From: Pseudomonas sp. J452
GTDB taxonomy: Bacteria; Pseudomonadota; Gammaproteobacteria; Pseudomonadales; Pseudomonadaceae
DNA length: 64,000 nt
Reading direction: 5' to 3'
Assembly: GCF_024666525.1 (NCBI RefSeq)
Contig: NZ_CP088294.1
Coordinates: 3,720,001-3,784,000, forward strand
Below the pieces are notes generated by a model. That model saw only the letters and a list, made by a program, of their open reading frames with translations. It had not been told where the DNA came from and made no database searches. The position numbers and the translations under genes are program-made. Below are positions 19,974 through 42,423 of the stretch, one piece after another. Each line of letters begins with the position of its first letter. Positions within the stretch are counted from its first letter, which is position 1.

Positions 19974-19975
19974 AT

Positions 19976-22498: not shown

Positions 22499-22580
22499 CA
22501 GTACACCCTCTTTTAAGCTATATATAGCATAGCCCCAAGGGCGCTAAAAAGGCTTCATCGTTCCTTTTGCGAGACAGCAA

Positions 22581-23430: not shown

Positions 23431-23457
23431 ATCATTTCTGCCCAGCCGAAAGCGGCC

Positions 23458-23688: not shown

Positions 23689-23822
23689 TCCCATCTCCAT
23701 CAAAACCACGACTCCTCTGGCAGCATACGCCTGGATTCCTGATAAGTGGCTGATGCTGACGCAGTTGGACGCTGAGCCAAACACCCAAGACCTTTTGGCC
23801 GAGAGTAAGAGCAGCAACTTAG

Positions 23823-24249: not shown

Positions 24250-24453
24250 TGGTGCTGGTTAATTCATGGGCCGCCCTAGCGCTGCAGATGGAGGTTCATT
24301 TGTGCGCTGAAACTGCTCGCAGACCGCGGGTCTTATGCGAAGCAGCCTTATTTGAGCTGCTTCGCTTCACGCCCCTTGAATTCTGGCTTGATGGCCTCAT
24401 TTGATCTTAAAGAGCCAGTACGTATCTGCGATCCAGATGCCCAAGGAGGGCAA

Positions 24454-26882: not shown

Positions 26883-26886
26883 TCAG

Positions 26887-28650
26887 ATGGAGACACCTCT
26901 GCAGCGGGGCATAGCCGCGCTGCGAGGCGCTCTTGGCGAAGATGCCGCACTTGCACTGCTTCAGCCTGTGACCACACGGTCTGACGAAGCCGCAAGTTAT
27001 TACTTTCCTTTGCCCGTTGACTATACGGGCACGGAGCGGCGGCTACGTATCAGCTTTCCGAGGAATTTCCCCCGCGGCGGATTAAGGCTTACTGTCGAAC
27101 CTTCGCCATGGCTTATATGGCCCCACGCCATGGAAGTCGGGCTCTGCCTGCATGGCTTCCAGGAGCGCCCAGTGATGGGCACCCCTGAATACGTGGTGTC
27201 GGATAGCCTGGCTCGGTTACGCAAGATCGTAAGCTTGTCCCAAATGGGGTCATGCGCGGCGGCGCGGGATGCCGAATTTCGGCGCGAAATCACATCCTAC
27301 TGGTCGAGGCAGCAGGGACTGTCTCTACAGAACCTTATTCTTCTGGATCGCCCCCAAGCTGCCTCGCAGCTGTTTGCCCTAAGCGATCCTCGCCAAGCGT
27401 TGCCGTCCGGCCAGGAAACAGTCTGGCTCGCAACAGATCTGTCATCACTGAAAAGGCACTGCAAGCGCACGATTGGCCGATCCCCCAGGATGCGTGCTCC
27501 CGAGACCCCAGGCTTCTACGCAAAGCTTCAGAGTTATCCGGATCTGCGCATTCCGGCCCCTGAGTTACTGCTCACATGGCTCATTCCGCACCTTACTCCC
27601 GGCGACCGCACGCAGCTGTTGGCTTGGTTCAATGAGCGTGGCTCGCTACCTAACCGCTGGATCGCTTTGGAGCTTCCGGGAGATACCGGTGCTCCGATCT
27701 ACTGCCTTAACGTTCGCGCTTACGGCCCACAGTTGGATCGAGGATCAAAGTTTTACCTACGTTCAGCGCGGCGCCGGCCAGCAGTCGCGGTAAGCCACCC
27801 CCCAGTTCTGATCCGAGCAACGACCCTGGATGTACTGGATCGGACAGAGATTTTGTCCCGTGACCTCAGCGGTGTGGCGCAGAACCTGGAAGCGGCTCGC
27901 GTAGTTTGTGTTGGGGTCGGCTCGTTGGGTAGTACGGTTGCCATACAGTTGGCGCGCTCGGGTGTTGGGCATCTGACACTCATTGACCCGGATCACTTGG
28001 TGTCGGCGAATCTCGGCAGGCATGTGCTCGGGGCCGATGACCTAGGCCTGGCCAAGGCCGAAGCGCTGCAGGAGCGAATTCGCAAAGACCTGCCTACCAC
28101 GGAGGTCGCTGCGTTCGCAGACTTCGCTGAAGTGGTGATGTACCAGAATTCCGAGGTATTTGATAAAGCGGATCTGGTCGTAGTTACCACTGCGGATTGG
28201 CAGTCAGAGGTGGCTCTGTGGAGCGCCAAGTCGAATGGCACATCCTGGGGTCTACTCCAGGCCTGGAGCGAACCTCATACGCAGGTGGGGCATGTGCTCC
28301 TTGCACCATCGGGTGCATTTGATGCTCGAGGCCTATTCACAGAAAACGGTGAATTTAGGCACAAGTTCACCGAGTGGCCGGAAGGTGGTGTCGTCGCCCT
28401 TCCCGCCTGCGGAGAGAGTTTCATCCCAGGAGGTTCTCTGGGAATGGTGAACATTGCTTCAATGGTCTCTCAGGCCGCATTACGAGCATTGAGCGGCGGC
28501 ACCGGAACCCCGATCTGGGTGAGCAGCATCAATAGCCCTCACGACGTGGCGACGCTGGGAGGGCAGTATCTGGGTCCTGAACTACCTACCGGCATGCAGC
28601 ACGCTCAGGTGGAGCGCGATTGGCCGGAGCAATTGGAGACAGCTCGATGA
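26887..28650 (+). CDS. cap2: CBASS Cap2 (E2-E1 fusion ligase)
   Basis: A 587-residue fusion. The N-terminal E2-like part has the catalytic Cys in GLCLHG (C87). After a linker, a ThiF-type E1 adenylation domain starts at GVGSLGSTVAIQLARSG (nucleotide loop, about 340) and carries the metal and ATP contacts in LIDPDHLVSANLGRH. The E1 active Cys is in LPACGESF (about 508). Cap2 activates the C-terminus of the CD-NTase and conjugates it to a target, which primes the synthase. I chose ATG 26,887, just after the CD-NTase stop; TTG codons upstream are possible. It overlaps cap3 by ATGA. Confidence 0.88.
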   Translation: METPLQRGIAALRGALGEDAALALLQPVTTRSDEAASYYFPLPVDYTGTERRLRISFPRNFPRGGLRLTVEPSPWLIWPHAMEVGLCLHGFQERPVMGTPEYVVSDSLARLRKIVSLSQMGSCAAARDAEFRREITSYWSRQQGLSLQNLILLDRPQAASQLFALSDPRQALPSGQETVWLATDLSSLKRHCKRTIGRSPRMRAPETPGFYAKLQSYPDLRIPAPELLLTWLIPHLTPGDRTQLLAWFNERGSLPNRWIALELPGDTGAPIYCLNVRAYGPQLDRGSKFYLRSARRRPAVAVSHPPVLIRATTLDVLDRTEILSRDLSGVAQNLEAARVVCVGVGSLGSTVAIQLARSGVGHLTLIDPDHLVSANLGRHVLGADDLGLAKAEALQERIRKDLPTTEVAAFADFAEVVMYQNSEVFDKADLVVVTTADWQSEVALWSAKSNGTSWGLLQAWSEPHTQVGHVLLAPSGAFDARGLFTENGEFRHKFTEWPEGGVVALPACGESFIPGGSLGMVNIASMVSQAALRALSGGTGTPIWVSSINSPHDVATLGGQYLGPELPTGMQHAQVERDWPEQLETAR

Positions 28651-29139
28651 CGGCCATCGCCTGGCAATGGAGCTGGCCCGGGGTGGACACTCATCTGTTG
28701 GTATCGCAGGACGTTGCGAGCCTGTTGGAGCGCTATCGGCAGAGGCACTTCGATGTGGAGCGTGGGGGACAGCTATTCGTCGACCCCGCAAGCGCTGCCG
28801 GACTGGTACTTGCCTTAGCGACGCCCCCCCCATCGAGATGACCGGGCTGGAAGAACTTGGCTGGAGTTGAATGCTCACCGCTGCCGAGACGAAATTGAAC
28901 GAGCCAATGCTGCCGGGCTCCGACTGGTGGGGTACTGGCATACTCACCCGCAAAGCATTCCTATGATCTCCCCCACTGATGTCGGGAGTTTTTCCAGGTT
29001 TGCCGCGCGCTACACACAAGATCTGCCGCGGCCGCTGGCAATCATCGTGGGCAACTCCAGCAGCCCTGAAGGCATAAAGGCTTGGTCCTTCAGGGAGGGG
29101 CGTTATGTTGAAGCTGCATGGGGTAGCTGGCCAGGTTAG
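28647..29139 (+). pseudogene. cap3: CBASS Cap3 JAB/JAMM peptidase, frameshifted
   Basis: The gene should encode about 163 residues that trim Cap2-made conjugates. From ATG 28,647 the frame reads MTAIAWQWSWPG to VERGGQLFVDP (catalytic Glu) and then breaks at a run of eight C (28,824-28,831), ending in ATPPPSR. With seven C the reading becomes ATPPHRDDRAGRTWLELN and runs into GYWHTHPQSIPMISPTD, the complete JAMM motif HxHPx7SxxD, with the stop at 29,139. Loss of Cap3 would be expected to leave the CD-NTase conjugates untrimmed. A homopolymer sequencing error is an equal explanation. Confidence 0.85.
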
Positions 29140-29684
29140 CGGTTACACCCGCCTGCCAGCATTAGCGCGAAAAGCTCCGCCTGAAATCGTGCATCGTCCA
29201 ACGCATTATGGTTGGGTGAGCTTTGGGGTTTGAGCCGAGCGGTCATTTGGGAGGATTTGGTTTCCTTCCAGCGGCAGCCGGTAGCCCCCATGTAATACGC
29301 CTTCATATCAATTGCGGTGAACCCAAAGGGGTTTGCCCCAGCATACTTGTGGAAGTAGTAATTGATGAAGGACCAGTCAAATGGAGTATTAAGCCCCACG
29401 AAAACGACTTTCTGATCTGCCGGGCATACCTGGGTCAGCCATTGCTCCAACTTGAGCATCGCGACCTGCGGAGCAAGCCCCTCGCTTTCTAGCCTTGTTA
29501 GATCAAGGCCAGTTACGGCCACTGCTTCCGGATCGTGCTGTATACCGTCAGGCTGAAGCTCAAGATAAATAGAGCTGGCAGGCTCACTCACGAGGCAGGC
29601 CCCAATGGAAAGCAAGCTATAGATGCCCGGCACCGGCCCGGAAGTTTCTACGTCGACGGAAACATAAAGCTCATCGCTCACCAT
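29136..29684 (-). CDS. DEDDh-type 3'-5' exonuclease
   Basis: A 182-residue exonuclease of the DnaQ-like fold. The motifs are in order: ExoI SVDVETSG (D, E), ExoII LNTPFDWSF (D) and ExoIII HNALDDA (H, D), the DEDDh set. It is probably a DNA or RNA 3'-5' exonuclease; the substrate is unknown. It is convergent with the cap3 reading frame and their stops overlap by four bases. It lies at the edge of the CBASS operon and could be part of the defence island, but does not look like a standard CBASS component. Confidence 0.82.
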   Translation of the reverse strand: MVSDELYVSVDVETSGPVPGIYSLLSIGACLVSEPASSIYLELQPDGIQHDPEAVAVTGLDLTRLESEGLAPQVAMLKLEQWLTQVCPADQKVVFVGLNTPFDWSFINYYFHKYAGANPFGFTAIDMKAYYMGATGCRWKETKSSQMTARLKPQSSPNHNALDDARFQAELFALMLAGGCNR

Positions 29685-29772
29685 TTTACCCCTTTATTTA
29701 GTCCGATCCATTCGGACAGTATGCGGTGAGTTGTATAAGCCGAACACCCACCCCCATGGAGACGTCAGCGTC

Positions 29773-30669
29773 ATGGACAACGCTCGTGATCGTATTACAC
29801 AGGAAATTGTTGAGGCCGAGGACCTTAAACTGCTGGTGGCAGTGGATACCTATGGCTACCAATGCCCTGGTTGCAAAACTCAGGCCTTCCCGCGCGCCTA
29901 CCGCCAGGAGAACTTGGTTCGGGCTCACTTTCAACTTCGCGACCCTCACGTCTCAGGTTGTGAGGTGGAGGGCGAAACTAAGGTTATAGCGCAGGGCAAG
30001 CGCGGCAGTGTTCAGCAGGAATTAGAGACCTCGCCAGGTTTATCACCCGCCCGGCTGCAGCTGGTTGAAGACCGTACCATCGTCGATCCTGCGCTACCTC
30101 ACACCGAGTGTCAGACACAGAGCGTCAGACGGTTGGATGGAGCTACTGGCCTGGTGCGACGAGAGGGACGACGCGCTGCGAACAGTATTCGTCCTATCTG
30201 CCGTGCTTTTTTGCGTTTCCCCTTCGATAGGCATCTTTCTTTAGCTATCCCGGGTATTGCCCCAACGACCTATCAAACCGCCTTCAAGAAACTTCGGGCG
30301 AAAGGGTTGGAGCCATGTCCGAATGCACGCATTTTCTATGGAGAACTGGCCTGGACGCCAGCCGCTGAATCGCCCGAACACATAACCATTTCACTCAACG
30401 CGGGCGAATGGGAGGAGAAAAAACTAACGCCTTACCAGGTGGTCGTCCTCTGGAGCGAGTGGTCAGCAGTTGCCTGCGGGCGGCTGAAAAACGAGCTGGA
30501 AATAGCCCGTCAAGAGAACATGAAAGCCAAAAAAGATAAGCAGGCATCCCGCAGTTACCTCTTCTTTGTGGGCGCCCAGGATGCTAAGAACCCTGCAATT
30601 TTCCATGTGCTGGACCATCGACTCATTTGCACCGCACATGACGAACTGGTGTTCCCAGTGCGCAGCTAG
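29773..30669 (+). CDS. Hypothetical protein with CoiA-like zinc motif
   Basis: A 298-residue protein. The N-terminal part has YQCPGCKTQAF and a downstream HFQLRDPHVSGC pattern, reminiscent of the small zinc-binding N-terminus of CoiA-like proteins. The centre and C-terminus (for example KLTPYQVVVLWSEWSAVA and LFFVGAQDAKNPAIFHVLDH) show no family I can name. The ATG at 29,773 was preferred over a TTG at 29,731. A CoiA-like protein lies nearby at 33,404-34,543, so the two could be functionally linked. Confidence 0.5.
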   Translation: MDNARDRITQEIVEAEDLKLLVAVDTYGYQCPGCKTQAFPRAYRQENLVRAHFQLRDPHVSGCEVEGETKVIAQGKRGSVQQELETSPGLSPARLQLVEDRTIVDPALPHTECQTQSVRRLDGATGLVRREGRRAANSIRPICRAFLRFPFDRHLSLAIPGIAPTTYQTAFKKLRAKGLEPCPNARIFYGELAWTPAAESPEHITISLNAGEWEEKKLTPYQVVVLWSEWSAVACGRLKNELEIARQENMKAKKDKQASRSYLFFVGAQDAKNPAIFHVLDHRLICTAHDELVFPVRS

Positions 30670-30697
30670 GGGCGGATCGGGGCCGCGGAAGGCGGTC

Positions 30698-31657
30698 TTA
30701 TGGCAGTCCCTCGGGCCAGTTTGAGATGTGTTGTAGCGCACTCAGCTGCCCAGGGAACACCCCTGTGCTCTCGACATAGCGCAATGCCGATTGCCCATCG
30801 CTCCAGCCTACGTACTGCATCAGCGCTTTGAGATCCCAGCCGCTGCGGGTGGCCCAGGTGGCAAACCCGCGGCGCAGCGAGTGGCTACTGTACAGCTCCG
30901 AAGGCAGCCCTGCCGCCTGCAGTACGGCGCGCATGAGTGGGACAACGCTATTTGGGTGCAAGCCCTGCTCACCTAAGTGCCCCCAGCGATCAATTCCACG
31001 GAATACCGGCCCTCGAGCTATGCCCGCCACGCTGATCCAGTCGACGTAGGCTTGTACTGGGCACAGCCTGGCCAGCGCCGGGGCGTTGAAGGTCTGGCCT
31101 TGGTTGTCGCGATCACCTTTGCTCCAGGGCAGGAACAGTTGCATGCCCTCCCCGGTCCGCACCTGGATGTGTTCGACCTGCAGGCGGCACAGCTCATCGC
31201 TGCGAAACGCCCGCCAGAAGCCAATCAGCATCAACGCACGATCGCGACAACAGCGCAGCAACCGCGGCCAGTCGTCCTCCGCTCGTGCTCTCCCCTCGGC
31301 CTGCTCCAGCCACAGCACGCACTGCTCGAGTTGGCGTAATTGCAGCGGTTCAGCCTGCTTCTCCTGACGCGGATGCAGGGTACGGATGCCCTTGAGAATC
31401 TGACGAACCAATGGGGTCTTGGTCGGATCGGGGAAGCCTTGGCTGACGTGCCACTGCGCCAGTGCCGCCAGGCGCAGCTTGAGGGTGTTACTGGACAGCG
31501 TGGCGGCGTGATCGACCAGGTAGCGCACGATGGCATCGCTGGTCGCCGGCAGAAAGCCGCCCCAGGTGACTTCGAAGTGTTCGAGCGCCTGCTGGTAGCT
31601 GCGCCGGGTGTTAGCTCGGGTACCGGCCTGTAGGTACCGCTCGATGTCCTGGCTCAT
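30698..31657 (-). CDS. Tyrosine recombinase (site-specific integrase)
   Basis: A 319-residue tyrosine recombinase with a core-binding domain (about 1-100) and a catalytic domain. The expected residues are present: R152 in AFRSDELCRL, K180 in WSKGD, H259 and R262 in SSHSLRRGFAT, W285 in YVGWSDG and nucleophile Y294 in LRYVESTG. GGGAG precedes the ATG. It is divergent from the KfrA-like gene. It could act in island integration or resolution; no attachment site was recognised nearby. Confidence 0.9.
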   Translation of the reverse strand: MSQDIERYLQAGTRANTRRSYQQALEHFEVTWGGFLPATSDAIVRYLVDHAATLSSNTLKLRLAALAQWHVSQGFPDPTKTPLVRQILKGIRTLHPRQEKQAEPLQLRQLEQCVLWLEQAEGRARAEDDWPRLLRCCRDRALMLIGFWRAFRSDELCRLQVEHIQVRTGEGMQLFLPWSKGDRDNQGQTFNAPALARLCPVQAYVDWISVAGIARGPVFRGIDRWGHLGEQGLHPNSVVPLMRAVLQAAGLPSELYSSHSLRRGFATWATRSGWDLKALMQYVGWSDGQSALRYVESTGVFPGQLSALQHISNWPEGLP

Positions 31658-31795
31658 CTGAGCGCATCTCCCTGGTGTACCGGTGAGCGACTGCCAAACG
31701 ACGAAAATGCCGCTTCACCTTGGATAATTCGTGATTACCCAATTCTAGATTATTGGCAGAAAAGAAGGGAAATTCTTGATAAAGTGCTATGTATC

Positions 31796-31808
31796 TACAT
31801 GGTATGTA
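31796..31808. repeat. Inverted repeat before the KfrA-like gene
   Basis: TACAT-GGT-ATGTA sits 31 bases before the KfrA-like start and within the region shared with the divergent integrase. KfrA proteins bind their own promoters, so this is a candidate operator. TTGATA lies about 20 bases upstream as a possible -35. Confidence 0.35.
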
Positions 31809-31839
31809 CTACAGAACGAAATCGTTAGGAGTCCTCGTT

Positions 31840-32841
31840 ATGGCCCGTGGTGGAATCAACAAAGCTGTCGTGAAGAAAGCGCGGAATGACCTCCTCGCCC
31901 GCGGCGTCCACCCCAGTATTGATGCGGTGCGTATCGAGCTGGGCAACACGGGCTCCAAGAGCACTATCCACCGGTACCTGAAGGAGCTGGAGGCCGAGAG
32001 CGAGCCGGCCTCGCCGGGAGATGCGTTGAGCGGACCGCTGACGAACCTAGTCGGCCATCTGCTGGATCAATTGAGGCAAGAAGCGCAGCAGTCCGTGGCC
32101 CAGACCCACGAAGCGTTGCTGCGCGAGCGCACGGCAGTACAGCAGCAATCGGCCGTACTCGAGCCTCGGATGCGAAACCTCGAATCACAGTGCTCGGGCC
32201 TGGCTCTACAGCTGCAAGCGGCCCAGGAGTTGGTTCTCCAGGAGCAGCAACAGCGGCAAACGGTCGAAATCGACAACGCTCGAATGGTTCAATCCCTGCG
32301 GGATCTGGAGGTACGCGTCAAGGAGCGCGAAGAGCGCATTCAATCGCTTGAAGACATGCATCAGCACGCTCGTGACGGCATGGAGCATTACCGCCAGGCC
32401 AGCAAGGAACAGCGAGAACAAGAGCAGCGCCGTCATGAAACCCAGGCCAGCCAGCTTCAGGCCGAGATACGCCAACTGCAACAAACGCTGATGATCAAGC
32501 ATGACGAGCTGACACAGCTGAACCGTGACAACGCACGACTACTCACCGAGGCGCGACAACAGCAGAAAGATCAGCGTGCGCTGGAGCAGCTTCTCGCGCA
32601 GAGGAGTCAGGCGCTGGAAAACGCTCAGAGCACACTGGCTAGCATGGGGCGTACGAATGAAACACTCGAACAGCAACGCCAGGCCCTGCAGGGAGAAGTG
32701 ACTCGGTTGGATGAAGCCCGCACAGCGCAAACAGAGCAAGTGCAGAGCCTGCAGCGACGGCTAGCCGAAACTACTGATCAATTGAAGGCACTCGGACATG
32801 TGTCGCCGCCAGCCCATGTGCCGATGCCTTCAAAGAGTTAG
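31840..32841 (+). CDS. KfrA-like DNA-binding coiled-coil protein
   Basis: A 333-residue protein. Its N-terminal 75 residues (NKAVVKKARNDLLARGVHPSIDAVRIELG, STIHRYLKELE) match the KfrA N-terminal DNA-binding domain of plasmid-stability proteins. The rest is a long coiled coil of Gln- and Glu-rich heptads (about 80-310). AGGAG sits nine bases before ATG 31,840; a longer frame upstream is not used. Proteins of this kind bind DNA and polymerize. The inferred role is control of the adjacent integrase or of island stability. Confidence 0.75.
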   Translation: MARGGINKAVVKKARNDLLARGVHPSIDAVRIELGNTGSKSTIHRYLKELEAESEPASPGDALSGPLTNLVGHLLDQLRQEAQQSVAQTHEALLRERTAVQQQSAVLEPRMRNLESQCSGLALQLQAAQELVLQEQQQRQTVEIDNARMVQSLRDLEVRVKEREERIQSLEDMHQHARDGMEHYRQASKEQREQEQRRHETQASQLQAEIRQLQQTLMIKHDELTQLNRDNARLLTEARQQQKDQRALEQLLAQRSQALENAQSTLASMGRTNETLEQQRQALQGEVTRLDEARTAQTEQVQSLQRRLAETTDQLKALGHVSPPAHVPMPSKS

Positions 32842-32909
32842 TACAGGCGACTGCCCTGATCAGTCCCTGCCCAAGTGACAACGATTATTGGCCCGCAACA
32901 GGAACATCA

Positions 32910-33113
32910 ATGCCGACGAAAGACGAATTGCGAGAGATCCTCGCGCGCCAGGCAGGGGAATTTCAGCACGCCGGCGGTGAGGTTGTTCTCTATGCCGCCA
33001 AGAGCGAGCCCACCAAGAAGCCCTGGAAGAAGAGACCGAGCCTGCTCGATGAAGCCTTTCGCCGTGAGCTGGAGAAGTCGGAAAAGGAGCTTCGGGACAA
33101 AGAGTGCCCATGA
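32910..33113 (+). CDS. Small charged hypothetical protein
   Basis: A 67-residue protein rich in Lys and Glu (KKPWKKRPSLLDEAF, LEKSEKELRDKE). No domain is recognised. It overlaps the next gene by four bases (ATGA), which suggests a two-gene unit downstream of the KfrA-like gene. Confidence 0.5.
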   Translation: MPTKDELREILARQAGEFQHAGGEVVLYAAKSEPTKKPWKKRPSLLDEAFRRELEKSEKELRDKECP

Positions 33114-33364
33114 GCCCGGAGCCCCACTCCTGCATCGCCGCCGGCCTGCACATCATCGTGGAGGCTATCGCCGTGTCAACCAGGTGGTTCACTGCAGATA
33201 ACAAGCCCTGTGCAGTTGTCCAGGTCATAAGCAACAAAGGTGGGCCAATGGGCCATCAGATCCAGTCGCAGCCCTGCCCTGTCTTCGAGCTTGACGCCGA
33301 AATGGAGGCCTTCCGCGAGTTAGCTGTGTTCTTCGGCAGCCCCCAGCACGCCGGCCGGCGGTAA
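33110..33364 (+). CDS. Small hypothetical protein coupled to the previous gene
   Basis: An 84-residue protein (MSPEPHSCIAAGLHIIVEA ... FFGSPQHAGRR) with no recognised family. The start overlaps the upstream stop as ATGA, which argues that both are real genes. No signal peptide is evident. The function is unknown. Confidence 0.45.
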   Translation: MSPEPHSCIAAGLHIIVEAIAVSTRWFTADNKPCAVVQVISNKGGPMGHQIQSQPCPVFELDAEMEAFRELAVFFGSPQHAGRR

Positions 33365-33403
33365 GTTCAGGGCCGATCTCAAGCCTGTGACAAGCTCGGG
33401 GCG

Positions 33404-34543
33404 CTACGTAGTGCATCTGCTCGAAGTGCCTGAGGTCCGCACCCCGGCCGAGCTATCCCCGCCCGCCCGATCCTCATAGGTATGCTCCGCGTCCAGTAAG
33501 TCATGATCGAGTCGCCATTGCTGCAAGCTGTGGCTTATGCCCCACCAGTTGGCGGCTTTCACCAAGCTTGCACTGGCCTGGATAGAGCAACTGCCAACTT
33601 TTCTTTCCGCATAGGCGGCCCGCTTGACGTTCTCCCCTGGAACCTTAGCCTCGCAGTGTGGGCACACATCACTCGGCATCATCGAGACCGGCATCCCGCA
33701 AGCTAGTAATTCAGTGCGAAGTGCCGCTGAGGCTAAGAGTGTTTTGTGGTGAAGCCAAAACGGCTCCCGGCTTGCTTCACCATTAATGATTAGCAGGGAC
33801 GTGGCCTCATGGTCCCGCCTGCAGTAAAAGCAGTGCGCCGGCGAAGCGTACTGGTCGATCACCGCTTGCTCGCCTACCTGCATACTGCCAAACCAAAAAC
33901 GCCGATTGAGTAATGCTCGTATGAACTGGGCTATGGGAATCCCACGCAAGCGGAAAATGGGGTTTGGTGGTGAGTCATCAGCTTTGTGATGGATCATCAT
34001 CTGCTTGGCATAAACCTCATAAGTGCCGTCAGAGTGCACTCCGACTCTCACTGCGGGGATTTGCTCTCGCACCAGAAACTGCTCCTGGCGATGAAGCCAG
34101 AGGGCTTTTACACCAGCGGATTTGTATCTGGCATGCCGCTCAACAGTGACCTTGTCGCTTTGCCGGCTCCACTGAACCTCGATCGCAAACCTTGCCCGGC
34201 CGCGGGAAGCCATAACGTCGGCCACCCACAATTCGCCTTCGCGAGATTCACCCCGCACCTCCGTTTCAGCGTCCCATCCGCTCTCAATAAGCGCCTCGCA
34301 CACCTGCAGCTTAATCTCCAAGTGCTCGGCAGACTCCGATGCCGAAGTGCAGGTACCTTTGACTTTGTGCGCGAAGAACCGGGTTCCGCGTTCGCTCTTC
34401 TTTAAGACTACGCCGCGGCCGCAGCAGGGCATGCTCAGGTGCCGAAATTGGGCATTGGACTGCCGCAGCGCCTCCCACTCCCACTCGCTCATCTTGAATG
34501 AATGGATGCTCTTCCTATCCGCGTCGACGCAACGTAGAGGCAT
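33404..34543 (-). CDS. CoiA-like competence/nuclease-family protein
   Basis: A 379-residue protein. The N-terminal CCGRGVVLKKSERGTRFFAHK is the small zinc-binding front of CoiA-like proteins. A PD-(D/E)xK-like nuclease core follows: HLEIKLQVCEAL, the Glu-rich WDAETEVRGE, VADVMASRGR, then FAIEVQWSRQS. The C-terminal half has zinc-type pairs (CFYCRRDH, CPHCEAK). CoiA proteins aid DNA uptake and recombination. In an island they may process incoming or element DNA. Confidence 0.7.
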   Translation of the reverse strand: MPLRCVDADRKSIHSFKMSEWEWEALRQSNAQFRHLSMPCCGRGVVLKKSERGTRFFAHKVKGTCTSASESAEHLEIKLQVCEALIESGWDAETEVRGESREGELWVADVMASRGRARFAIEVQWSRQSDKVTVERHARYKSAGVKALWLHRQEQFLVREQIPAVRVGVHSDGTYEVYAKQMMIHHKADDSPPNPIFRLRGIPIAQFIRALLNRRFWFGSMQVGEQAVIDQYASPAHCFYCRRDHEATSLLIINGEASREPFWLHHKTLLASAALRTELLACGMPVSMMPSDVCPHCEAKVPGENVKRAAYAERKVGSCSIQASASLVKAANWWGISHSLQQWRLDHDLLDAEHTYEDRAGGDSSAGVRTSGTSSRCTT

Positions 34544-34748
34544 AGCAACTCAACAGCCAGTAGGAGTGGGACGATCTGCCAGACCGGTAGCGATAAATGG
34601 AGGCGCATACCGGTTGTACTCTGGCGTTGGGCCATGGGCCAAGTGCAGACGAGCATCGCACCTACAACCGACACAATCATAGCTAAGCTCAAATACGAGC
34701 ATGCGCACACCGCGAGGCCATGCCGTTTTCACAACAAGCGATCCTATA

Positions 34749-35852
34749 ATGAACCAACCAGATGAAGACATACCCAGAGCAAGCGAGGCGGAACATTTCG
34801 CTTTGGACTTTCCTTATCGGAAGTCGGTAAGAATCCGACGCGATCTGAAGCACTTTGATCTCTGGTTACAAGCAACCTACGAAATCACGATCGATAGGCC
34901 AATCCCTTTAGCCTATATCTACAAAGACTTCTTTCTCAGCCACGTCGCGCTCTATCCAAGCTCGGCGATGCCAGGTCGCCTACTGTCGGCAGACTTGGAG
35001 AATGAATTGCTTGGGTCAGGGTTACTAGATGCTGATGAGCTCAGTTGCCAGCAAGTAGCCTCGATGGTTTTGTCCGTCCTTCGCTGGCAGCACCATCGAT
35101 ACAAGGCAATAGATGCTCAGAAACTGTTGCGCGAGTTGCTTCCTTTTTATCGGCAGGTCCAATGGATAACGCGCAACAAAGAACTCACCTATCAATCGGC
35201 ACTAAAGTCTGCAAGAGTTCTAAATGTGTTCCGTCGCCATCAGGTAACAAGCCCTCAACCTGAGCGCGACCTAGCCATGATCTTGCTGACCTGGGAATAC
35301 GACTTTAGTCCATCAGAACTGATTCAGTTGAGCTTTGATAGCATTCGAATAAACCGCAGACCTCTAGAGTGGATATACCTCCGCTCTGAACTTCCAGTAA
35401 AGCTGGATCATATGACAGCTGTAACCATCTTTACCCTCCTTTGCGAGAATGTTGACTTGATGGACCTCAAGTCCCACGGGTTTATGAACCGCCAGGATGG
35501 CGGGGCCTGGCGTGCCCTGACCGTAAGTGAGGTCGAGGTGATCCTGGAGCGCCATTACCGATATGCGGGTACCCTATATGGATTTGATCATTACTATGTC
35601 CCTGCCGGACCACCAACACCTGACCTCTTGCCGCAGGAGGAAGCGGCATTTACCAAAGCGTTAAAAAGGTTCACCAAGGATCTGTATGCTGGTCAGGGTT
35701 CGACTGAAGGGGAGCACGAGGACGATGACTGGGATGCAGCTGTCCGAAAAATGTCGCTACAGCGAACTTCAGCAGAGGCGGAATCCCGCATGAATGAAGA
35801 GCAAGTTGATTGGGATGCGGTCATCAAGAATATAGGCTCAAGCGTTAATTAG
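34749..35852 (+). CDS. Unknown protein with a weak recombinase-like core
   Basis: A 367-residue protein that I cannot place in a family. The segment AMILLTWEYDFSPSELIQLS has the look of the tyrosine-recombinase helix that normally carries the first catalytic Arg, but the Arg is absent, and no HxxR or Tyr motif is clear. The last 70 residues are acidic (GEHEDDDWDAAV, VDWDAVI). The ATG at 34,749 was chosen; the upstream extension looks non-coding. Its 3' end overlaps the convergent TniQ region by 15 bases, so it may be a factor of the transposition module. Confidence 0.5.
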   Translation: MNQPDEDIPRASEAEHFALDFPYRKSVRIRRDLKHFDLWLQATYEITIDRPIPLAYIYKDFFLSHVALYPSSAMPGRLLSADLENELLGSGLLDADELSCQQVASMVLSVLRWQHHRYKAIDAQKLLRELLPFYRQVQWITRNKELTYQSALKSARVLNVFRRHQVTSPQPERDLAMILLTWEYDFSPSELIQLSFDSIRINRRPLEWIYLRSELPVKLDHMTAVTIFTLLCENVDLMDLKSHGFMNRQDGGAWRALTVSEVEVILERHYRYAGTLYGFDHYYVPAGPPTPDLLPQEEAAFTKALKRFTKDLYAGQGSTEGEHEDDDWDAAVRKMSLQRTSAEAESRMNEEQVDWDAVIKNIGSSVN

Positions 35853-36344
35853 GCGGATAACCTTAAGCCAACTCTGACCATGAGGAGGACTTTCCTCGTC
35901 AGGTGGCAATTCCAAGGGACTTGGCTCGCGGCCCGTTTTCCATGAGTGAGCCGATATAAATGTCATGCTTGGTGGGCTCACGCTCCGCTCAGTGAGAACT
36001 ACAGCCCAACATACGGGATGTAAAAGTCGCCGATATGGAATATCAGCATACTCCGGCGTGTCCACCCCCTTGGCCAGCGCCTCCCTCTGCTCCATCTGCC
36101 GCTTGAGCAGCGTAACAACTTCACAGCCAAGCATTTGTCGAAGCAACCAACGCTCGGCTGCAGGCGTTACCTGCCGGAACAGGCCATGCCCTTTCTTCTC
36201 CGCTATCCATGCGGCCACCTTCACCTTGCTGCCGTGCGTCGAATGCAGTAGTTCACGCGGCACTTTAGCCTGGCGCCAATAGCATAACCAATCAATGTAG
36301 ACGAGCACGCTATAATAATTAGCGGGCAGCAAGGCCCCCCTCAA
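35838..36344 (-). CDS. C-terminal part of a TnsD/TniQ-like protein (separate frame)
   Basis: A 168-residue frame (first start codon TTG at 36,344) that overlaps the end of tniQ by 26 bases. It has the sequence of a natural continuation: if one G is removed from the six-G run (plus strand C 36,336-36,341), tniQ reads RDIEGALLPANYYSVLVYIDW and continues to LLRQMLGCEVVTLL and beyond, giving about 490 residues. Tn7 TnsD has 508. On its own the frame has no recognised domain. It is either a genuine separate gene or a piece of a frameshifted TnsD. Confidence 0.55.
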   Translation of the reverse strand: MRGALLPANYYSVLVYIDWLCYWRQAKVPRELLHSTHGSKVKVAAWIAEKKGHGLFRQVTPAAERWLLRQMLGCEVVTLLKRQMEQREALAKGVDTPEYADIPYRRLLHPVCWAVVLTERSVSPPSMTFISAHSWKTGREPSPLELPPDEESPPHGQSWLKVIRLINA

Positions 36345-37296
36345 TGTCGCGCCAAAACATTTCTAGCGAATTACTAGTTAAACAAATTTTCGAAATATAG
36401 TTTTTTTTGAAATTCCTAAAAATCGACTTCGAAATACTCACCAACTCATTGACTAAAATCTCACTGTCGGTGCCTGCCTCCTCTTGTTTAATTTTATCGG
36501 AGTGTAAAAATGTGGGGTATTGGCGCAGCGAAGATTGGAATGAAGGCGCACAAGCCATTGCTTGCAGGTCACGAAATAAATCTGCCTCTACTCGAGCAAA
36601 CTGCTGAACGGAATGCGACAGTTGTAATACATTATCGCAATGCAGATCTGCGGGGCCGACAATATCGAACACAATGTGCTCGTTCTCTCCCCCCAGCATT
36701 CTATGGACCTGTCGCAAGCGCGACATACCCGGAGCGCTGATAAAACGCAACGATTGAGGGTCGCGCCCACTTCCAAGTTGGCGACCGCAGTGCCAACAGC
36801 CATAGAGATATTTAAATAAGGTAGCATTAAAATCGTAACTCATGGTTGCAGCGCAGTGCTGGCAATGATTAAGCAAGTCGATCGCATGTACTGGACATGT
36901 TTCAATGAGTTCATATTGAAATAGCGTATAATGCCGACCTTGCGACAAACAAATCGGACAATATCTAAGCTCAGAAGCCACGTGTCGGTCAGAGCCAATA
37001 TAAGCAGGTGTAAGAAATAAGAATTTAGCCTGCTGCGAACTCAAGCCGAACAAATCTTGCAAACCAGCCATTCCCACAGACTCAATATGAGCTAGATTTT
37101 TGAAGTGTCTAGCCCTGGAGTGTTGAGAGCCGCAATGTTGTTTGATGATCTTAACTAGTGATCCACCCTTGACGACATTGAACAATCCAAATCTACAAAT
37201 AACTGAGTAAATCGATTCATATGGAATATATCTTGGTCTTAGCCCACAGTATCTTTGGTTAGGACGTAGCAACTCTTCGCGCAGGGTGATAATCAT
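36319..37296 (-). CDS. tniQ: TniQ-family target-selection protein, N-terminal part
   Basis: A 325-residue TniQ-domain protein. The N-terminal TniQ region is followed by zinc-binding pairs: RYCPICLSQG, the CPVH-x(n)-CQHC set (ETCPVHAIDLLNHCQHCAATM) and GCWHCGRQL. TniQ proteins such as TnsD choose the target site and recruit TnsC. The frame ends DIEGGLAAR at 36,319, and its downstream half appears to lie in the next frame. It is two bases past tnsC in the leftward tns operon. Confidence 0.85.
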   Translation of the reverse strand: MIITLREELLRPNQRYCGLRPRYIPYESIYSVICRFGLFNVVKGGSLVKIIKQHCGSQHSRARHFKNLAHIESVGMAGLQDLFGLSSQQAKFLFLTPAYIGSDRHVASELRYCPICLSQGRHYTLFQYELIETCPVHAIDLLNHCQHCAATMSYDFNATLFKYLYGCWHCGRQLGSGRDPQSLRFISAPGMSRLRQVHRMLGGENEHIVFDIVGPADLHCDNVLQLSHSVQQFARVEADLFRDLQAMACAPSFQSSLRQYPTFLHSDKIKQEEAGTDSEILVNELVSISKSIFRNFKKNYISKICLTSNSLEMFWRDIEGGLAAR

Positions 37297-37298
37297 AT

Positions 37299-38285
37299 CT
37301 AGGCTAACGTGTTCGCCACTTTAGAGTTGCGAGCGGCAACCGCGAACCAGGACTCTTCGATGAGCGACATGCAGATCGCCGGGGACAGTGAGAAGCTCGC
37401 ACTATCATTATCGCAGTATTCAGTTAGGAGGATTTCAATGGTTTTCGTAAAGTACTTCATCGGAATCTCCATATCAGCCTTTATTCCTAGCCCTTTGTAG
37501 GACTCTTTGAACGCATCCCAGAGCATATCTCCATAGTCTTGCAGCCGAAGTCCAGCCGCAAACGCATCAGGAAAGAAAAAACGCGTATATGTCCAATTAC
37601 TTCCTTCCGGAAAAACGGCGCTATCATAATAACCAAGGCAATCTACGAAATCCTCTTTGCTGCGGATACCACGAAATGAGTGCTCATAAAGCAGAAAACG
37701 ATTAACTATGGCTTCCCCTTCCTCACCAGATTTTAGCAAAGTTTCTTTATGGCCTAGCAACTGATTCTGCCCAACCAAGATAGGCAGCAACGTGACACTT
37801 TTCTCCATCAAAGCATTGTATATATCTTTGATCCAGTCATAGTGAATCGGAAGTAATCTTGATGCTTCATCAATGAACAAAATAAAAATTCTGCGCGGAT
37901 CATTCAGCGCTGCGTCAATAATAAAGTTCTTTAACCTCGATTTTTTGATACTGATGCTGCAATAATCTTCCCATTTAGCATGACCAACGACTTCCAGTAG
38001 AGAGGTATAGAAGCCGCCCTTGCTGGGCGATATATCGCGTTCAGCAAAGAATATTGCCACTGGGATATTTGGGAAATCAATACTTAAACACTGCCTGCAG
38101 TAAAGCATAGCTCGCGTTTTGCCGTAGCGGACGCGTCCATAAATAACTAGCCCTGAGTCGAGTCGTTTGATTGCCTTCAACACCATGGCATAAGTTTCGC
38201 CAATAGAATACGTAGGCATCAAATAAGCTTTACTGCTAACAGGATGTTCTTCGATACGGATAGGCCGCATATCCTTGATATCCAT
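37299..38285 (-). CDS. tnsC: TnsC-like AAA+ ATPase
   Basis: A 328-residue AAA+ regulator of transposition. Walker A is YGRVRYGKTRA (K56) and Walker B is RRIFILFIDEAS (D139, E140); the last strand region has LPILVGQNQL. Like TnsC and TniB it should bridge the target-bound TniQ and the TnsB transposase. The DNA here is clearly AT-rich compared with the flanking genes. Confidence 0.88.
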   Translation of the reverse strand: MDIKDMRPIRIEEHPVSSKAYLMPTYSIGETYAMVLKAIKRLDSGLVIYGRVRYGKTRAMLYCRQCLSIDFPNIPVAIFFAERDISPSKGGFYTSLLEVVGHAKWEDYCSISIKKSRLKNFIIDAALNDPRRIFILFIDEASRLLPIHYDWIKDIYNALMEKSVTLLPILVGQNQLLGHKETLLKSGEEGEAIVNRFLLYEHSFRGIRSKEDFVDCLGYYDSAVFPEGSNWTYTRFFFPDAFAAGLRLQDYGDMLWDAFKESYKGLGIKADMEIPMKYFTKTIEILLTEYCDNDSASFSLSPAICMSLIEESWFAVAARNSKVANTLA

Positions 38286-38296
38286 ATGCTATCCTC

Positions 38297-40183
38297 TCAG
38301 AGTGTAAAAACCTTGGTAAGTTTAATGCGCTCTGCATTAGTTCTCTCTGGCGCATCAGTGCCGCCAGTATTGCTTTGAGATGGCTCATCACTGACGCGCC
38401 CAGTCTCCTTATATAAGGTGGTAGCAACTCTTCGCGAAATCTCACCAGTAGACGATTTTAAACGCCGGAATGCCTCGACGGGAGCTTCGTCACGAGAAAA
38501 TTGGAATTGGCCTTTCTTCGTTGCCTTCCACAATTCGCTTCGCACTTTAAGACTGTGCGGCTGTTGGTACCAAGGGTGAGGAGCTCTTAGAACTCCAACA
38601 AAAGCGCCATCCTCATCTAAGAGTCTGAGAAATGAAATATCGTCACGTGAATACTCTACGAACATATTTCTTCCAGCGGAGTCGCTTCTAAGGACATCGG
38701 GATTCTTGTACTTCAGATATGCAAAATTAACGTAAGCCCCGCCATATTTTGAAGAAGTTCGCACGACCACCGACTCCCGAGCCATTGCAAATAGAGTCGG
38801 ATCCCTGAGAGCGTCAGGCAATGTGTTGGGTGGAAGAGAGTTCTGATCACCTCTCAGACAGAAAATCCCCAGCGGTGAATGCGCTTGCAACGATGAGTGA
38901 GGGCGACCATTGTAGTCAGAGATCAAGATATCAATGGTGCTTTTCAGCTCTTCTAGTGTCATTAGCAGTTTCAGAGGATTCTTTGACTTGGGAGATAAGC
39001 GTTCAATAATTTTATCTCGACTATCACTGCCGGTTGTGCCAATTATCCGGTGTGAATAATGTTGTACGACAAACAGGAAGAATCGCTCGATAATGGCTCG
39101 GTCATTAGGCGTATGGGGGCGCCCAAACTCAGTAACACACCCTACTCGATCGTGAAGAACCCGGACAACATTCGTGGCTTGGTGAGCCCAAGCATTATCA
39201 AGTTTGAGAGTTGACCATGTTTCCCAGGCATATCCGTGCTCACTTGGAAACCCGCCAGCGGTAGAGTAATGAATATCTGGAGTAACTTGGGACGGTCGTT
39301 GATGCGGTGTTAAGCTGTTAAATATAGCCTTTAAAAGGTCAATCTGGTCGTACGTATGGCCTAGAGCAATGGAGTATCCCAGCACACAGCGCGAAAAAAC
39401 ATCAATTAGCAAAATTAGCCAAACCCTTAAAATTTCGTATCTGATTGGCTGTCCAAAACTGTCTAATTCTTCAATGACTAATCGGATGTCGAGCATGTGG
39501 CCGTCAGTCTCCACCTGCTGCAGAATATCGGTAGGAGGAACATTGTCATTTATATCAGAGGCATTCCTATCTTTCTCATCTAACGCCTTTAATTCTTTGC
39601 TCTTCGACTTCAGATATTCTCTCAAGGCCGATCGGGCAAGTGTCTTTCGATTAAATGGATAATGATCTTTGCTGATCGACAATGATGTGCATTGCGCTAA
39701 AAAATTATTATGTACAACATCAAAGCTATCACCACCTTGGCTCCTTGGCTTATAACTTCGGGCAGTCTTATCTAACCATGATTGTATTTTTGGGTGTTCA
39801 GCTATTAGCTTGCTAAATGCCCCAGCATCTCCCTGAGCTGCTCCATCATTGGAGTCGCCTAGATCTTTCTCGCGATTATATTTTTTATCACCATTGCGTC
39901 TATATGGAATGGCTCCTTTGAAGCCAATAACCACTCCATCCGCATCCAATGCAAGACATCTATTAATAGATCTATACAGTGTTGATCGCGGTAGACCATA
40001 CGTATCTTCTATCTCGCGCAGGGTTGCACCATTTTTCAGATAAGCTCTAATTGCTTTGATTCTATTGTCTGTCGCCCCTCTTATATTCTCGGCAACAAGC
40101 TCAATATCTATACCCCTCCACGCATCACATGAATACCCAGCGGCAAGGAATTCATTACGAGAAAAGCGAGTTGAGTCACTCAT
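38297..40183 (-). CDS. tnsB: TnsB-like DDE transposase
   Basis: A 628-residue transposase of the Mu/TnsB retroviral-integrase type. It has a helix-turn-helix (ATLREIEDTYGLPRSTLYRS, 53-72), a second DNA-binding region, and the catalytic triad D227 (ETDGH), D329 (LKLDNAW) and E366 (PNDRAIIERFF). The C-terminal region contacts TnsC in Tn7. It cuts the 3' ends of the element and joins them to target DNA. Its start overlaps the end of the tnsA-like gene by eight bases. Confidence 0.92.
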   Translation of the reverse strand: MSDSTRFSRNEFLAAGYSCDAWRGIDIELVAENIRGATDNRIKAIRAYLKNGATLREIEDTYGLPRSTLYRSINRCLALDADGVVIGFKGAIPYRRNGDKKYNREKDLGDSNDGAAQGDAGAFSKLIAEHPKIQSWLDKTARSYKPRSQGGDSFDVVHNNFLAQCTSLSISKDHYPFNRKTLARSALREYLKSKSKELKALDEKDRNASDINDNVPPTDILQQVETDGHMLDIRLVIEELDSFGQPIRYEILRVWLILLIDVFSRCVLGYSIALGHTYDQIDLLKAIFNSLTPHQRPSQVTPDIHYSTAGGFPSEHGYAWETWSTLKLDNAWAHQATNVVRVLHDRVGCVTEFGRPHTPNDRAIIERFFLFVVQHYSHRIIGTTGSDSRDKIIERLSPKSKNPLKLLMTLEELKSTIDILISDYNGRPHSSLQAHSPLGIFCLRGDQNSLPPNTLPDALRDPTLFAMARESVVVRTSSKYGGAYVNFAYLKYKNPDVLRSDSAGRNMFVEYSRDDISFLRLLDEDGAFVGVLRAPHPWYQQPHSLKVRSELWKATKKGQFQFSRDEAPVEAFRRLKSSTGEISRRVATTLYKETGRVSDEPSQSNTGGTDAPERTNAERIKLTKVFTL

Positions 40184-40808
40184 GCCTCACCCGAATTACA
40201 CCTAGCTGAGTTAATCCGCTGATCCTTTTGTATCGAACATCAAATAGTTCTACCCTACCCCGCCTGACAAGCTCAAACAGTAGCGCCGCTGCGCCACCAC
40301 CATATCCAGACTGCAAGTCACTTACTGAGTCGCTTATTGTTCCCTTGCTTCGATCAATCGAATGAAATGCAAATTCAAGGTTCTTCTCAGTAAATATCTC
40401 TCTATATTTGTTAATGTATGACAGCATGCAAAGCAGATTTTCTGCATACATCTGCTCTTCACTCAGGCATTTAGCCCCTAAGAACTCAGCTTTGATACCG
40501 TTGCTTTCGCAATACTCGACTATCTCAGCTTTAACATTTCCGGTGATTTCGCGGCTAGAAAAGACAAAATGTAAAACGCCATGCATTTCGCACTGAAGTG
40601 CAACTGATACTTTTTTGCGTTCCAGATTTAAAGTAGCCTGATTTACAAGTACATCTGTGGCATAGGGGTTAAACTCGAGCCCAGCCCAGCGCCAGAAGCT
40701 CGGTCGACAGTAAAGCCTTACCTGAGTATTCTTTTTAGGGCTGTATGCCAAAAACTCAGGCGCGCCCGCCGGCCTACCCTTTGCATCCAATGTAATAAAG
40801 GCTGCCAT
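40176..40808 (-). CDS. tnsA: TnsA-like protein lacking the nuclease motif
   Basis: A 210-residue protein at the tnsA position. The C-terminal half (KAEIVEYCESNGIKAEFLG, YAENLLCMLSYINKYR) fits the winged-helix part of TnsA. The N-terminal half should hold an E...PD...ExK nuclease core, but the corresponding segment reads QCEMHGVLHFVFSSRE, with no Lys at the expected strand end. Tn7 TnsA (273 residues) uses E63, D114 and K132 to cut the 5' strands. This protein therefore looks inactive as a nuclease, which I infer from sequence only. It overlaps tnsB by eight bases and is the most proximal gene to the right end. Confidence 0.6.
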   Translation of the reverse strand: MAAFITLDAKGRPAGAPEFLAYSPKKNTQVRLYCRPSFWRWAGLEFNPYATDVLVNQATLNLERKKVSVALQCEMHGVLHFVFSSREITGNVKAEIVEYCESNGIKAEFLGAKCLSEEQMYAENLLCMLSYINKYREIFTEKNLEFAFHSIDRSKGTISDSVSDLQSGYGGGAAALLFELVRRGRVELFDVRYKRISGLTQLGVIRVRHE

Positions 40809-40861
40809 TCGTATGGCCTCTCAGCTTTTGCACTATAATTCCCTGGAAAATTAGCAATTTA

Positions 40862-41074
40862 CGAAAGTTTCATATTTGCAGGGCAAGCGCGAAAGTTTCA
40901 AATTCCCAAGAATTATGGTGGCAATTTCTGCGCAACTCAGAATTTTTGGAGATAAGGAGGGGGTTGGTAATAATTAATTGAATTGAAAATCACCAAAAAC
41001 TATCCAGTGAAAGGCGTTTTTAGCGACTAGGTGAAAGTTTCAAATTAAGTTGGTTGCACTATTACGGAGTCACA
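40862..41074. repeat. Candidate transposon right end with three TnsB-type repeats
   Basis: Three direct copies of (c/t)GAAAGTTTCA(A/T)ATT lie at 40,862-40,876, 40,890-40,904 and 41,032-41,046, with a weaker TGAAAGGCG copy near 41,008. The likely element end is TGTGACTCCGTAATAG, read inward on the minus strand from 41,074. A possible five-base target duplication AGATG follows at 41,075-41,079. Repeats of this kind are TnsB binding sites in Tn7 relatives. Confidence 0.6.
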
Positions 41075-41108
41075 AGATGTCTTTGCATGCCGCCCCCCCC
41101 CCCTCTGA

Positions 41109-41765
41109 TCAACCCTGCGCTTTGTCGCTCGGCAAATCGGCGCTGCCGTCCTCTACCTCTTCTGCATCGGTGTTATCCCAGATCAATCGCGGATCGAACG
41201 TCACTGCCGCGATCATGGTCAGGATCACCACGCAGCAAAACGCGATCGCACCGGGAGCCGCCTGGATGCTGGCGATGTTGCCGAAATTGACCAGTGCAAC
41301 CAGGATTGCGATGACAAAGATATCGAGCATGGACCAGCGTCCAATCCACTCGATAAAACGGTACATCAGGATGCGCTGCTGGGCTGACATCGGCTGATGG
41401 CGTTGTACCGAGTACAGCAGCAAGGCGATACCCACCAGCTTGAAGGTCGGCACCAGGATGCTGGCGATGAACACCACCGCCGCGATTGGCAGCATATCGG
41501 CATGGATCAGTTCCAGTACGCCGCCCATGATGGTCGACGGCGCGCCGTTGCCAAAGAAGTTGATGGTCATGATCGGCAGCAAGTTGGCCGGAATGTAGAG
41601 AACCGCCGCGGTGATCAGCAAGGCCCAGGTCCGGGTGATACTGTCCGGGCGGCGCATATGCAGCCTGGAGCCGCAACGCGCACAGTGCTGTACTTGGTCT
41701 TCGATCAAGTATTCCAGCTGATGGCATTCGCCGCAGACCAGAATTCCGGCATCAAGTGCGCGCAT
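41109..41765 (-). CDS. pqiA: Paraquat-inducible protein A family, second half-protein
   Basis: A 218-residue inner-membrane protein of the PqiA/YebS family. A zinc-ribbon-like N-terminus (LVCGECHQLEY, CARCGSRL) precedes four transmembrane segments with PIMTINFFG and the family's LIHADMLPIA. PqiA in E. coli joins two such halves in one protein; here each half is a gene. GAGGAAG precedes ATG 41,765, which overlaps the upstream gene by 14 bases. The gene ends 29 bases before the candidate transposon target site. PqiA/YebS partners move lipids together with MCE proteins. Confidence 0.88.
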   Translation of the reverse strand: MRALDAGILVCGECHQLEYLIEDQVQHCARCGSRLHMRRPDSITRTWALLITAAVLYIPANLLPIMTINFFGNGAPSTIMGGVLELIHADMLPIAAVVFIASILVPTFKLVGIALLLYSVQRHQPMSAQQRILMYRFIEWIGRWSMLDIFVIAILVALVNFGNIASIQAAPGAIAFCCVVILTMIAAVTFDPRLIWDNTDAEEVEDGSADLPSDKAQG

Positions 41766-42423
41766 GGTTATCTTCCTCTTCACTGAGTGCATCCCACACC
41801 TGATGCGGAGACATGGTCACCTCGAGCCACACCTGAGCCAGCATCAAGGCGATGAAACAGGCCATGCCAACGCCCAGATGCAGGTCGGCAAGACCGACCA
41901 GTTTGACGATCGAGACGATAATGCCGAACAAGTAGATTTCCAGCATGCCCCATTCACGCAGGTGGTGGTACGCCCGGTACAACTGTATGCCGAGGGGGCG
42001 CCAGCTTGGGAATGGCAAACTCAGCAGGACCAGAAGCTGGCACAGCAGCTTGAGCAGCGGGATCAGCATGCTGCAGAGAAAGACCACCGCGGCCACGGCT
42101 TTCATGTCGGACTGGTACAGCCCCACTACCCCGCTCCACACCGTGTCGACGGCGTTCTGGCCCAGCAGGTTGAGACTCATGATCGGCAGGAAGTTGGCCG
42201 GGATGAACAGCAGCAATGCCGTCAGCACCAGGGCCAGGGCGCGGCGCTGCATCTGCGCACGGTGCACCACCAGTTCGTAGCCACAGCGCGGGCAGCTGGC
42301 TTTCTGCTCCTCACCAACATGCGGGTGATGCATGAGCAGGTCGCACTCATGGCAGGCAATCAGATCTTTCAGCGGCGGTAGCGCTTGCCGGGTATCCACG
42401 GGTTGCCCCGAATCCTGAATCAT
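41752..42423 (-). CDS. pqiA: Paraquat-inducible protein A family, first half-protein
   Basis: A 223-residue PqiA-family membrane protein with an N-terminal zinc ribbon (ACHECDLLMHHP, SCPRCGYEL). Transmembrane helices follow, including LVLTALLLFIPANFLPIM and the MLIPLLKLLCQLLVLLS stretch. It overlaps the next gene by 14 bases, so both halves are made from one transcript. The usual MCE partner pqiB is not to the right; if present it would lie beyond the island on the left. Confidence 0.88.
   Translation of the reverse strand: MIQDSGQPVDTRQALPPLKDLIACHECDLLMHHPHVGEEQKASCPRCGYELVVHRAQMQRRALALVLTALLLFIPANFLPIMSLNLLGQNAVDTVWSGVVGLYQSDMKAVAAVVFLCSMLIPLLKLLCQLLVLLSLPFPSWRPLGIQLYRAYHHLREWGMLEIYLFGIIVSIVKLVGLADLHLGVGMACFIALMLAQVWLEVTMSPHQVWDALSEEEDNHART

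Follow-up and report, generated by a model that had tools for sequence, protein, structure and literature searches.

The stretch of DNA considered here, referred to as the window, comprises 64,000 nucleotides of the source genome, Pseudomonas sp. J452 (G000:C1:3720001-3784000, within a single contig of 4.86 Mb), and its first 41,076 positions belong to a Tn7-like element whose full extent is G000:C1:3688858-3761076, or 72.2 kb. To judge from sequence comparison, the family to which this element belongs almost certainly homes to dif, the site of chromosome dimer resolution by XerCD, which most bacteria with circular chromosomes possess in highly conserved form. The element and the features of its right-hand part and junction are as follows, in window coordinates.

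1..41076, no strand: part of the Tn7-like element within the window, recognised by inverted end repeats, an ATGTC duplication and an empty site at the same point in a relative (G118)
34701..35852, plus strand: orf383, a protein of tyrosine-recombinase fold that lacks the catalytic arginine and is a candidate for reading dif or acting as an adaptor
35838..36344, minus strand: second piece (C-terminal part) of a split tniQ/tnsD, aligning from about residue 317 of the single open reading frame (ORF) of relatives
36319..37296, minus strand: first piece of the split tniQ/tnsD (TniQ PF06527, E 1.4e-9, above cut-off)
37299..38285, minus strand: tnsC, AAA ATPase, 328 aa (AAA_22, E 2.9e-4, below the Pfam cut-off)
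38297..40183, minus strand: tnsB, DDE transposase, 628 aa (rve_3, E 3.7e-5, below the Pfam cut-off)
40176..40808, minus strand: tnsA-like gene, 210 aa
40863..40876, plus strand: end repeat GAAAGTTTCATATT, presumed TnsB site
40891..40904, plus strand: end repeat GAAAGTTTCAAATT, presumed TnsB site
41033..41046, plus strand: end repeat GAAAGTTTCAAATT, presumed TnsB site
41066..41076, minus strand: right terminus, reading inward CTTGTGACTCC, with the duplication directly outside; right ends of relatives are alike
41077..41081, no strand: right copy of the 5-bp target duplication ATGTC
41109..41792, minus strand: pqiA-family gene (PF04403, E 9e-57), neighbour of the right junction and not the target

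The initial annotation recognised a Tn7-like element here, and this is borne out by the TnsB, TnsC and TniQ genes together with both ends, the 5-bp duplication and the empty site. The operon tnsA-tnsB-tnsC-tniQ that it described is present as minus-strand genes at 35838-40808, with the reservations that tnsA is named by position and conservation only and that tniQ is split. The tnsA-like gene lies upstream of tnsB in relatives too, and profile searches of its product gave no meaningful match to Pfam models or PDB chains. A five-sequence TnsB profile matches PseTnsAB in the PDB (E 9.7e-5); TnsC, with an identity of 57-94% in five aligned relatives, has no match there. A TnsB-type DDE transposase, a TnsC ATPase (by a weak match) and TniQ/TnsD are thus found together, as in Tn7-like elements. 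The overlapping tniQ frames of 325 and 168 aa correspond to one ORF of 474-485 aa in all seven related loci that were read, and because of this split (35838-37296) the present copy may now be immobile, unless frameshifting is programmed. A predicted structure of the full-length TnsD of G113 was too poor to use (mean pLDDT 56).

Both termini can be placed to the base. The repeats that had been pointed out between tnsA and the right end stand above chance: GAAAGTTTCAWATT occurs exactly at 40863, 40891 and 41033, these three are the only copies in the whole genome with one mismatch or fewer, and four matches with up to two mismatches occur in the window against 0.34 expected. Other particulars of the right junction need correction. 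The terminus had been given as TGTGAC at 41074 and the duplication as AGATG, each two bases away from the actual CTTGTGACTCC ending at 41076 and the actual ATGTC, and the end, said to lie 29 bases beyond the pqiA stop codon, lies 32 bases from it (stop at 41109-41111). A matching left end, sought outside the window, was found 31.1 kb to the left of its first base, where ATGTC (G000:C1:3688853-3688857) is followed directly by CTTGTGATCG; at the right junction GTCACAAG is followed directly by ATGTC, so that the duplication is perfect. The left junction carries three inverted copies of the end repeat, two of AATTTGAAAC and one of AATTTGAGAC, and several inverted repeat sites (TnsB binding being presumed) are therefore present at both ends with a 5-bp duplication, as in Tn7-like elements. 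The island-free state that had been looked for exists at the same point in G118, in which a match to positions 3764651-3761101 of the source genome is followed, after 23 bases, by a match to 3688838-3681543; the island is thus the 72.2 kb that separates these two tracts in the source genome.

Relatives were collected in several draws. A first draw from the genus gave 27 TnsB matches, of which eight with at least 40% identity were followed and eight more distant ones had dif located only. TnsB identity is 87% in G113, 85% in G148 (Pseudomonas sp. BMS12) and 87% in G398 (P. composti CCUG 59231), falls to 53-55% in G102 (P. peradeniyensis), G399 (P. putida 31753), G332 (Pseudomonas sp. Irchel 3E13) and G059, to 43-44% in G194 and G054, and to 40% in G002. 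A scan with the TnsB profile gave 16 loci: two were new (L103 in G398, L106 in G399), three were known (L104, L105 and L107, in G148, G102 and G332) and 11 had about 30% identity. A family draw of 398 genomes yielded seven matches, of which four bore new handles; one of these, G749, is by its coordinates identical with G398 and is not counted. A further draw of 293 genomes around G102 gave six, none new. A TniQ scan of the named genomes found nothing, tnsA had no match in the plasmid collection, and tnsB had none in the phage collection; tnsB matched 73 plasmid records, in no case reaching 60% identity (26.6-32.1% among the 30 listed). An end pattern (CTTGYGA, then TTTGARAC within 35 bases) picked out both ends and nothing else in G000, G113, G148, G398, G399 and G059, giving elements of 72.2, 68.9, 67.5, 49.9, 128.7 and 81.1 kb, and the right end alone in G102 and G332; it has no match in G118. 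The largest of these six is that of P. putida 31753 (G399:C2:498285-626967, 128.7 kb). The termini of the source element begin CTTGTGA, and the motif CTTG(T/C)GA also starts the right ends of G148, G113, G398, G399, G059, G102, G332, G809 and G591 (another genus), the last two coming from the family draw.

It is the left flank that these insertions share. The dif sequence GCATAATGTATATTATGTTAA is common to the left flanks of G000, G148 and G398, and dif (CGCATAATGTATATTATGTTAA, with up to three mismatches) occurs once per genome in each of the 9, 13 and 4 genomes searched. In all 12 resolved elements, from 12 genomes, dif stands outside the left end, in one orientation and always with its XerD side toward the element; the XerD half that faces the element is TTATGTTAAAT (TTATGTTAAAC in G332), the former being the XerD half given in PMC10132070. 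Counted from the edge of the 28-bp dif, the left end is 31 bp away in G148, 33 in G332, 36 in G000, 39 in G398 and in G809, 43 in G591, 50 in G054, 65 in G113, 68 in G399 and in G102, 74 in G194 and 155 in G059. The 5-bp duplications are identical at the two ends of every one of the 12: among the six elements found by pattern they are ATGTC (G000), TCAGC (G148), CAAAG, TGTCT, GATGG and ACTGG, and in the others AACTG (G102), GTCAC (G332), TTAAA (G194), GCGTT (G054), AAGCT (G809) and TCTCT (G591). Since the duplications differ between elements, the insertions are separate events. G102 and G332 have a left end beside dif whose outer five bases match the previously known right end, and G194 and G054 have a second type of end, CTTTCGCGG on the left and GCACG on the right. 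The rule had been stated before the 398-genome draw produced G809 and G591 (dif variant CGCATAATGAAGATTATGTTAA), and both elements proved to be at dif. With these two excluded, the chance of ten insertions falling within 160 bp of a single site is about 10^-42.

A position beside dif might suggest that XerC and XerD themselves integrated the island, as XerCD does with IMEX phages and the gonococcal island. Both ends of an island integrated in this way bear a dif-like site, whereas there is one dif per genome at up to three mismatches, and the ends here carry repeat arrays and a 5-bp duplication that lies 26-150 bp from dif; integration by XerCD is rejected on the single dif and seems vanishingly improbable.

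The initial annotation had instead proposed homing to the 3' end of pqiA, in the manner of Tn7 at glmS. A preferred site does exist, as it supposed, but that site is dif. Between the right end and the stop codon of pqiA there are 32 bp in G000 and 6 bp in G148, and the different duplications (ATGTC and TCAGC) make these two separate events; these are the only two of the 12 elements that pqiA adjoins. No pqiA was found by tblastn in ten flanks of 9.2-10.7 kb around the elements of G113, G398, G399, G059, G332 and G102, the right-hand sequence that was available for G054 (11.4 kb), G591 (2.5 kb) and G809 (0.5 kb) has none either, and in G194 the gene lies 17 kb outside the right end; all 12 have dif at the left end. 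In G118, which lacks the element, dif and pqiA are neighbours across an empty interval, and in G000 and G148 pqiA adjoins the element simply as the neighbouring gene of dif. Since other elements stand at dif with no pqiA beside them, homing to pqiA is refuted as a general rule and has only the slenderest of chances; pqiA is a bystander. The gene is here the second of a pair of pqiA type with no pqiB downstream; among the 30 pqiA loci listed, 22 run by eye into an apparent pqiB and eight, this one included, do not.

Several points weigh against homing to dif. The spacing to dif varies (31-74 bp, and once 155), unlike that of Tn7 to its target, which is fixed. CRISPR-guided elements keep 50-60 bp, again unlike the variable distances here (PMC8649781). 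For G102, G332, G194, G054, G809 and G591 the left end was sought beside dif and not blind, and their proximity rests on the matching duplication at the distant right end; the exact ends of G194 and G054 were themselves fixed with the help of the duplication, and in G332 and G591 the two element ends are on different contigs. The elements of G113 and G398 are near-identical (TnsD 100%) and represent two insertions of one element. G194 and G054 are at dif without orf383. For two further elements, in G002 and G794, no placement at dif was possible: their tnsB genes are on other contigs than dif, and no end-like array was seen within 1.5 kb on either side of dif (the ends of this group not being known); they are outlying, with TnsB about 40% identical and TnsB profile scores of 530 and 528 bits against at least 588 for the other 12. 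The tally is thus 12 of 12 elements of the clade at dif and neither of the two from the outlying group placed there.

The varying distances would also suit a process in which dif is not recognised at all, the terminus region simply tolerating or collecting mobile DNA, or the element preferring terminating replication forks in a TnsE-like way. By eye there is integrase-like coding near dif in G059, G002 and G125, and in six far relatives (G023, G125, G195, G057, G193 and G190) tnsB shares a contig with dif at a distance of 52-438 kb; in two others, G129 and G180, tnsB and dif are on different contigs. A regional preference would, however, scatter insertions over kilobases, and none of the 12 is more than 155 bp from dif, every one being on the same side and in the same orientation, which makes this account improbable.

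Some side observations concern the surroundings of dif. The element of G059 (L137, L138) lies within an apparent tyrosine-recombinase gene adjoining dif, with filamentous-phage-like genes beyond, as judged by eye. On the XerD side of dif in G002 and G125 (L159, L154) there is a different, mutually similar sequence with integrase-like coding, also by eye, which may be a further mobile element associated with dif. In G113 and G398 (L149, L143) the true left end is followed directly inward by a stretch that resembles by eye the left end of the G194 and G054 type, which suggests tandem or nested dif-homing elements. In G023 (L024/L164) and G195 (L019/L158), the tnsB genes, about 24% identical and 52 and 123 kb away from dif, are ordered and oriented as homing to dif would predict.

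The gene at 34701..35852, orf383, has the core-binding and catalytic-domain fold of the tyrosine recombinase superfamily without the residues of an active recombinase. In all 41 aligned rows the Arg I column holds T, S, A or P, and the G809 and G591 proteins likewise have S or P there; no HxLR box was present in the eight rows checked, and neither a PDB sequence profile nor Pfam gave a meaningful match. The gene sits beside tnsD in 10 of the 12 elements; it is missing from those of G194 and G054, both at dif, so it cannot be the sole selector of the target, and its candidacy for that role is weakened accordingly. Relatives of orf383 occur in Pseudomonas aeruginosa (protein P0001, which stands for 178 contigs, and P0031), and dif-homing elements may therefore be common in that species.

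Taken as a whole, the material is best explained, with high probability, by a Tn7-like transposon family that appears to use dif as its chromosomal attachment site. Insertion is ascribed to the TnsA-like protein, TnsB and TnsC. Sequence comparison shows that it produces a 5-bp duplication at a loosely spaced point, 31-74 bp and in one case 155 bp from the XerD half, that the left end is turned toward dif with the tns genes far off, and that dif stays intact. Target choice would probably pass through TniQ/TnsD, carried by all 12 members, and in most members orf383, as a catalytically dead Xer-like recombinase, might assist by binding dif or by docking on XerCD-bound dif, an assistance we rate at a little under even chances. 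An adjacent, active-looking tyrosine recombinase may resolve cointegrates. A bolder proposal, and a more tentative one, is that a dead Xer-family recombinase was taken in as the target selector for dif or for the XerCD-FtsK complex, so that the element lands beside the one site with which almost no circular bacterial chromosome can dispense, perhaps in step with chromosome segregation. Alternatively, the transposition proteins could read XerC or XerD at dif directly, with neither TnsD nor orf383 as the reader, as has been proposed for insertion sequences (IS) of the ISAjo2 type. These TnsB-related IS, members of the IS1202 family, find dif unaided by any further protein (PMC10132070), and orf383 is dispensable in G194 and G054; the IS nevertheless insert 5 bp from the XerC side, whereas the present elements lie at variable distances on the XerD side and have kept tnsC and tniQ/tnsD, and direct reading seems unlikely, though the most probable of the rivals.

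Several known systems are close to these elements. Tn7 itself consists of TnsABC with TnsD acting at glmS, and the present elements resemble it in the TnsB/TnsC/TniQ-type gene order from the right end, the repeated end sites, the 5-bp duplication and insertion beside a recognised site. They differ in that the target of Tn7 is a gene end faced by its right end, while here a 28-bp dif is faced by the left end at varying spacing, and the TnsA-like protein is one that models do not recognise; the glmS subgroup has its right end beside glmS, and all 12 elements here have the left end beside dif. A scan of proteins from the window, which did not extend to the outlying 31 kb of the element, gave no TnsE match. 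The Tn5053/Tn402 transposons, known as res hunters, also bear TniQ and target a site-specific recombination site, but these are the res sites of serine resolvases on plasmids and transposons and not chromosomal dif. Tn6022, with its TnsF, shares an inactive tyrosine-recombinase-derived protein encoded beside tniQ, but it targets comM and has a tniQ of 369 codons, against dif and a tniQ/tnsD of about 444-514 codons here, where orf383 is convergent to the operon and absent from two of 12 members (PMC10293859); insertion into comM with tnsF in an operon with a short tniQ is thus not what is seen. The nearest report to a dif-homing element is the ISAjo2 group of the IS1202 family, the 'dif site hunters', described in PMC10132070 as one-gene IS of 1.5 kb that lie 5 bp from the XerC side. 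They too have a TnsB-like DDE transposase, a 5-bp duplication and a fixed orientation next to dif; the present elements are islands of 50-129 kb (72 kb and many genes in J452) with tnsABC and tnsD, 31-155 bp from the XerD side, and so fall outside that family.

The cargo within the window comprises the following.

1..21352, no strand: copper-resistance genes (two-component pairs, copB, multicopper oxidase, P-type ATPase) and Gabija
11304-12815, minus strand: Gabija gajB
12721-14448, minus strand: Gabija gajA
24352..30669, no strand: CBASS-type operon (SAVED-HNH effector, cyclase, E1-E2), DEDDh-type exonuclease and PD-Lambda-4 B-like gene
29731-30669: the PD-Lambda-4 B-like gene
30698..31657, minus strand: tyrosine recombinase with a Phage_integrase domain (PF00589, E 5e-12)
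31789..32841, plus strand: KfrA-like gene beside the recombinase (PF11740, E 3e-24)

Homologues of the tyrosine recombinase occur in the elements of G113, G148, G398, G194, G054, G102, G399, G332 and G059, and it is a possible cointegrate resolvase; with a TnsA-like protein (40176-40808) that matches no TnsA model and a tyrosine recombinase next to it, the element might transpose through a cointegrate that is then resolved. G194 and G054, despite a TnsB identity of only 43-44%, carry CBASS, recombinase and KfrA-like genes with 76-98% identity to those here, and over 24352-31657 the identity of the CBASS, exonuclease, PD-Lambda-4-like and recombinase genes to their counterparts in those elements is 90-98% (L082, L089, L090); dif-homing elements thus exchange cargo.

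The 12 insertions suggest a landing site that is new to the literature searched: no report of a Tn7-like transposon at dif was found there (most subscription papers, bioRxiv and supplements lay outside the search), nor was any report found of a Tn7-like element with pqiA, and the word 'dif' is absent from the main text of the surveys and review PMC10293859, PMC8649781 and PMC11406308. A recombination site would thereby join gene ends, tRNA and guide-RNA matches as a target of TnsABC, and, being conserved in most circular chromosomes, dif would offer an ideal universal safe harbour. Transposon targeting would be linked to chromosome segregation through XerCD and FtsK, and orf383 would join TnsF as another inactivated tyrosine recombinase that travels with TniQ, the second such case. 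Homing to dif would also account for the location of islands of 50-129 kb in pseudomonads, that of J452 carrying metal-resistance and phage-defence genes, and would make target recognition testable in laboratory strains.

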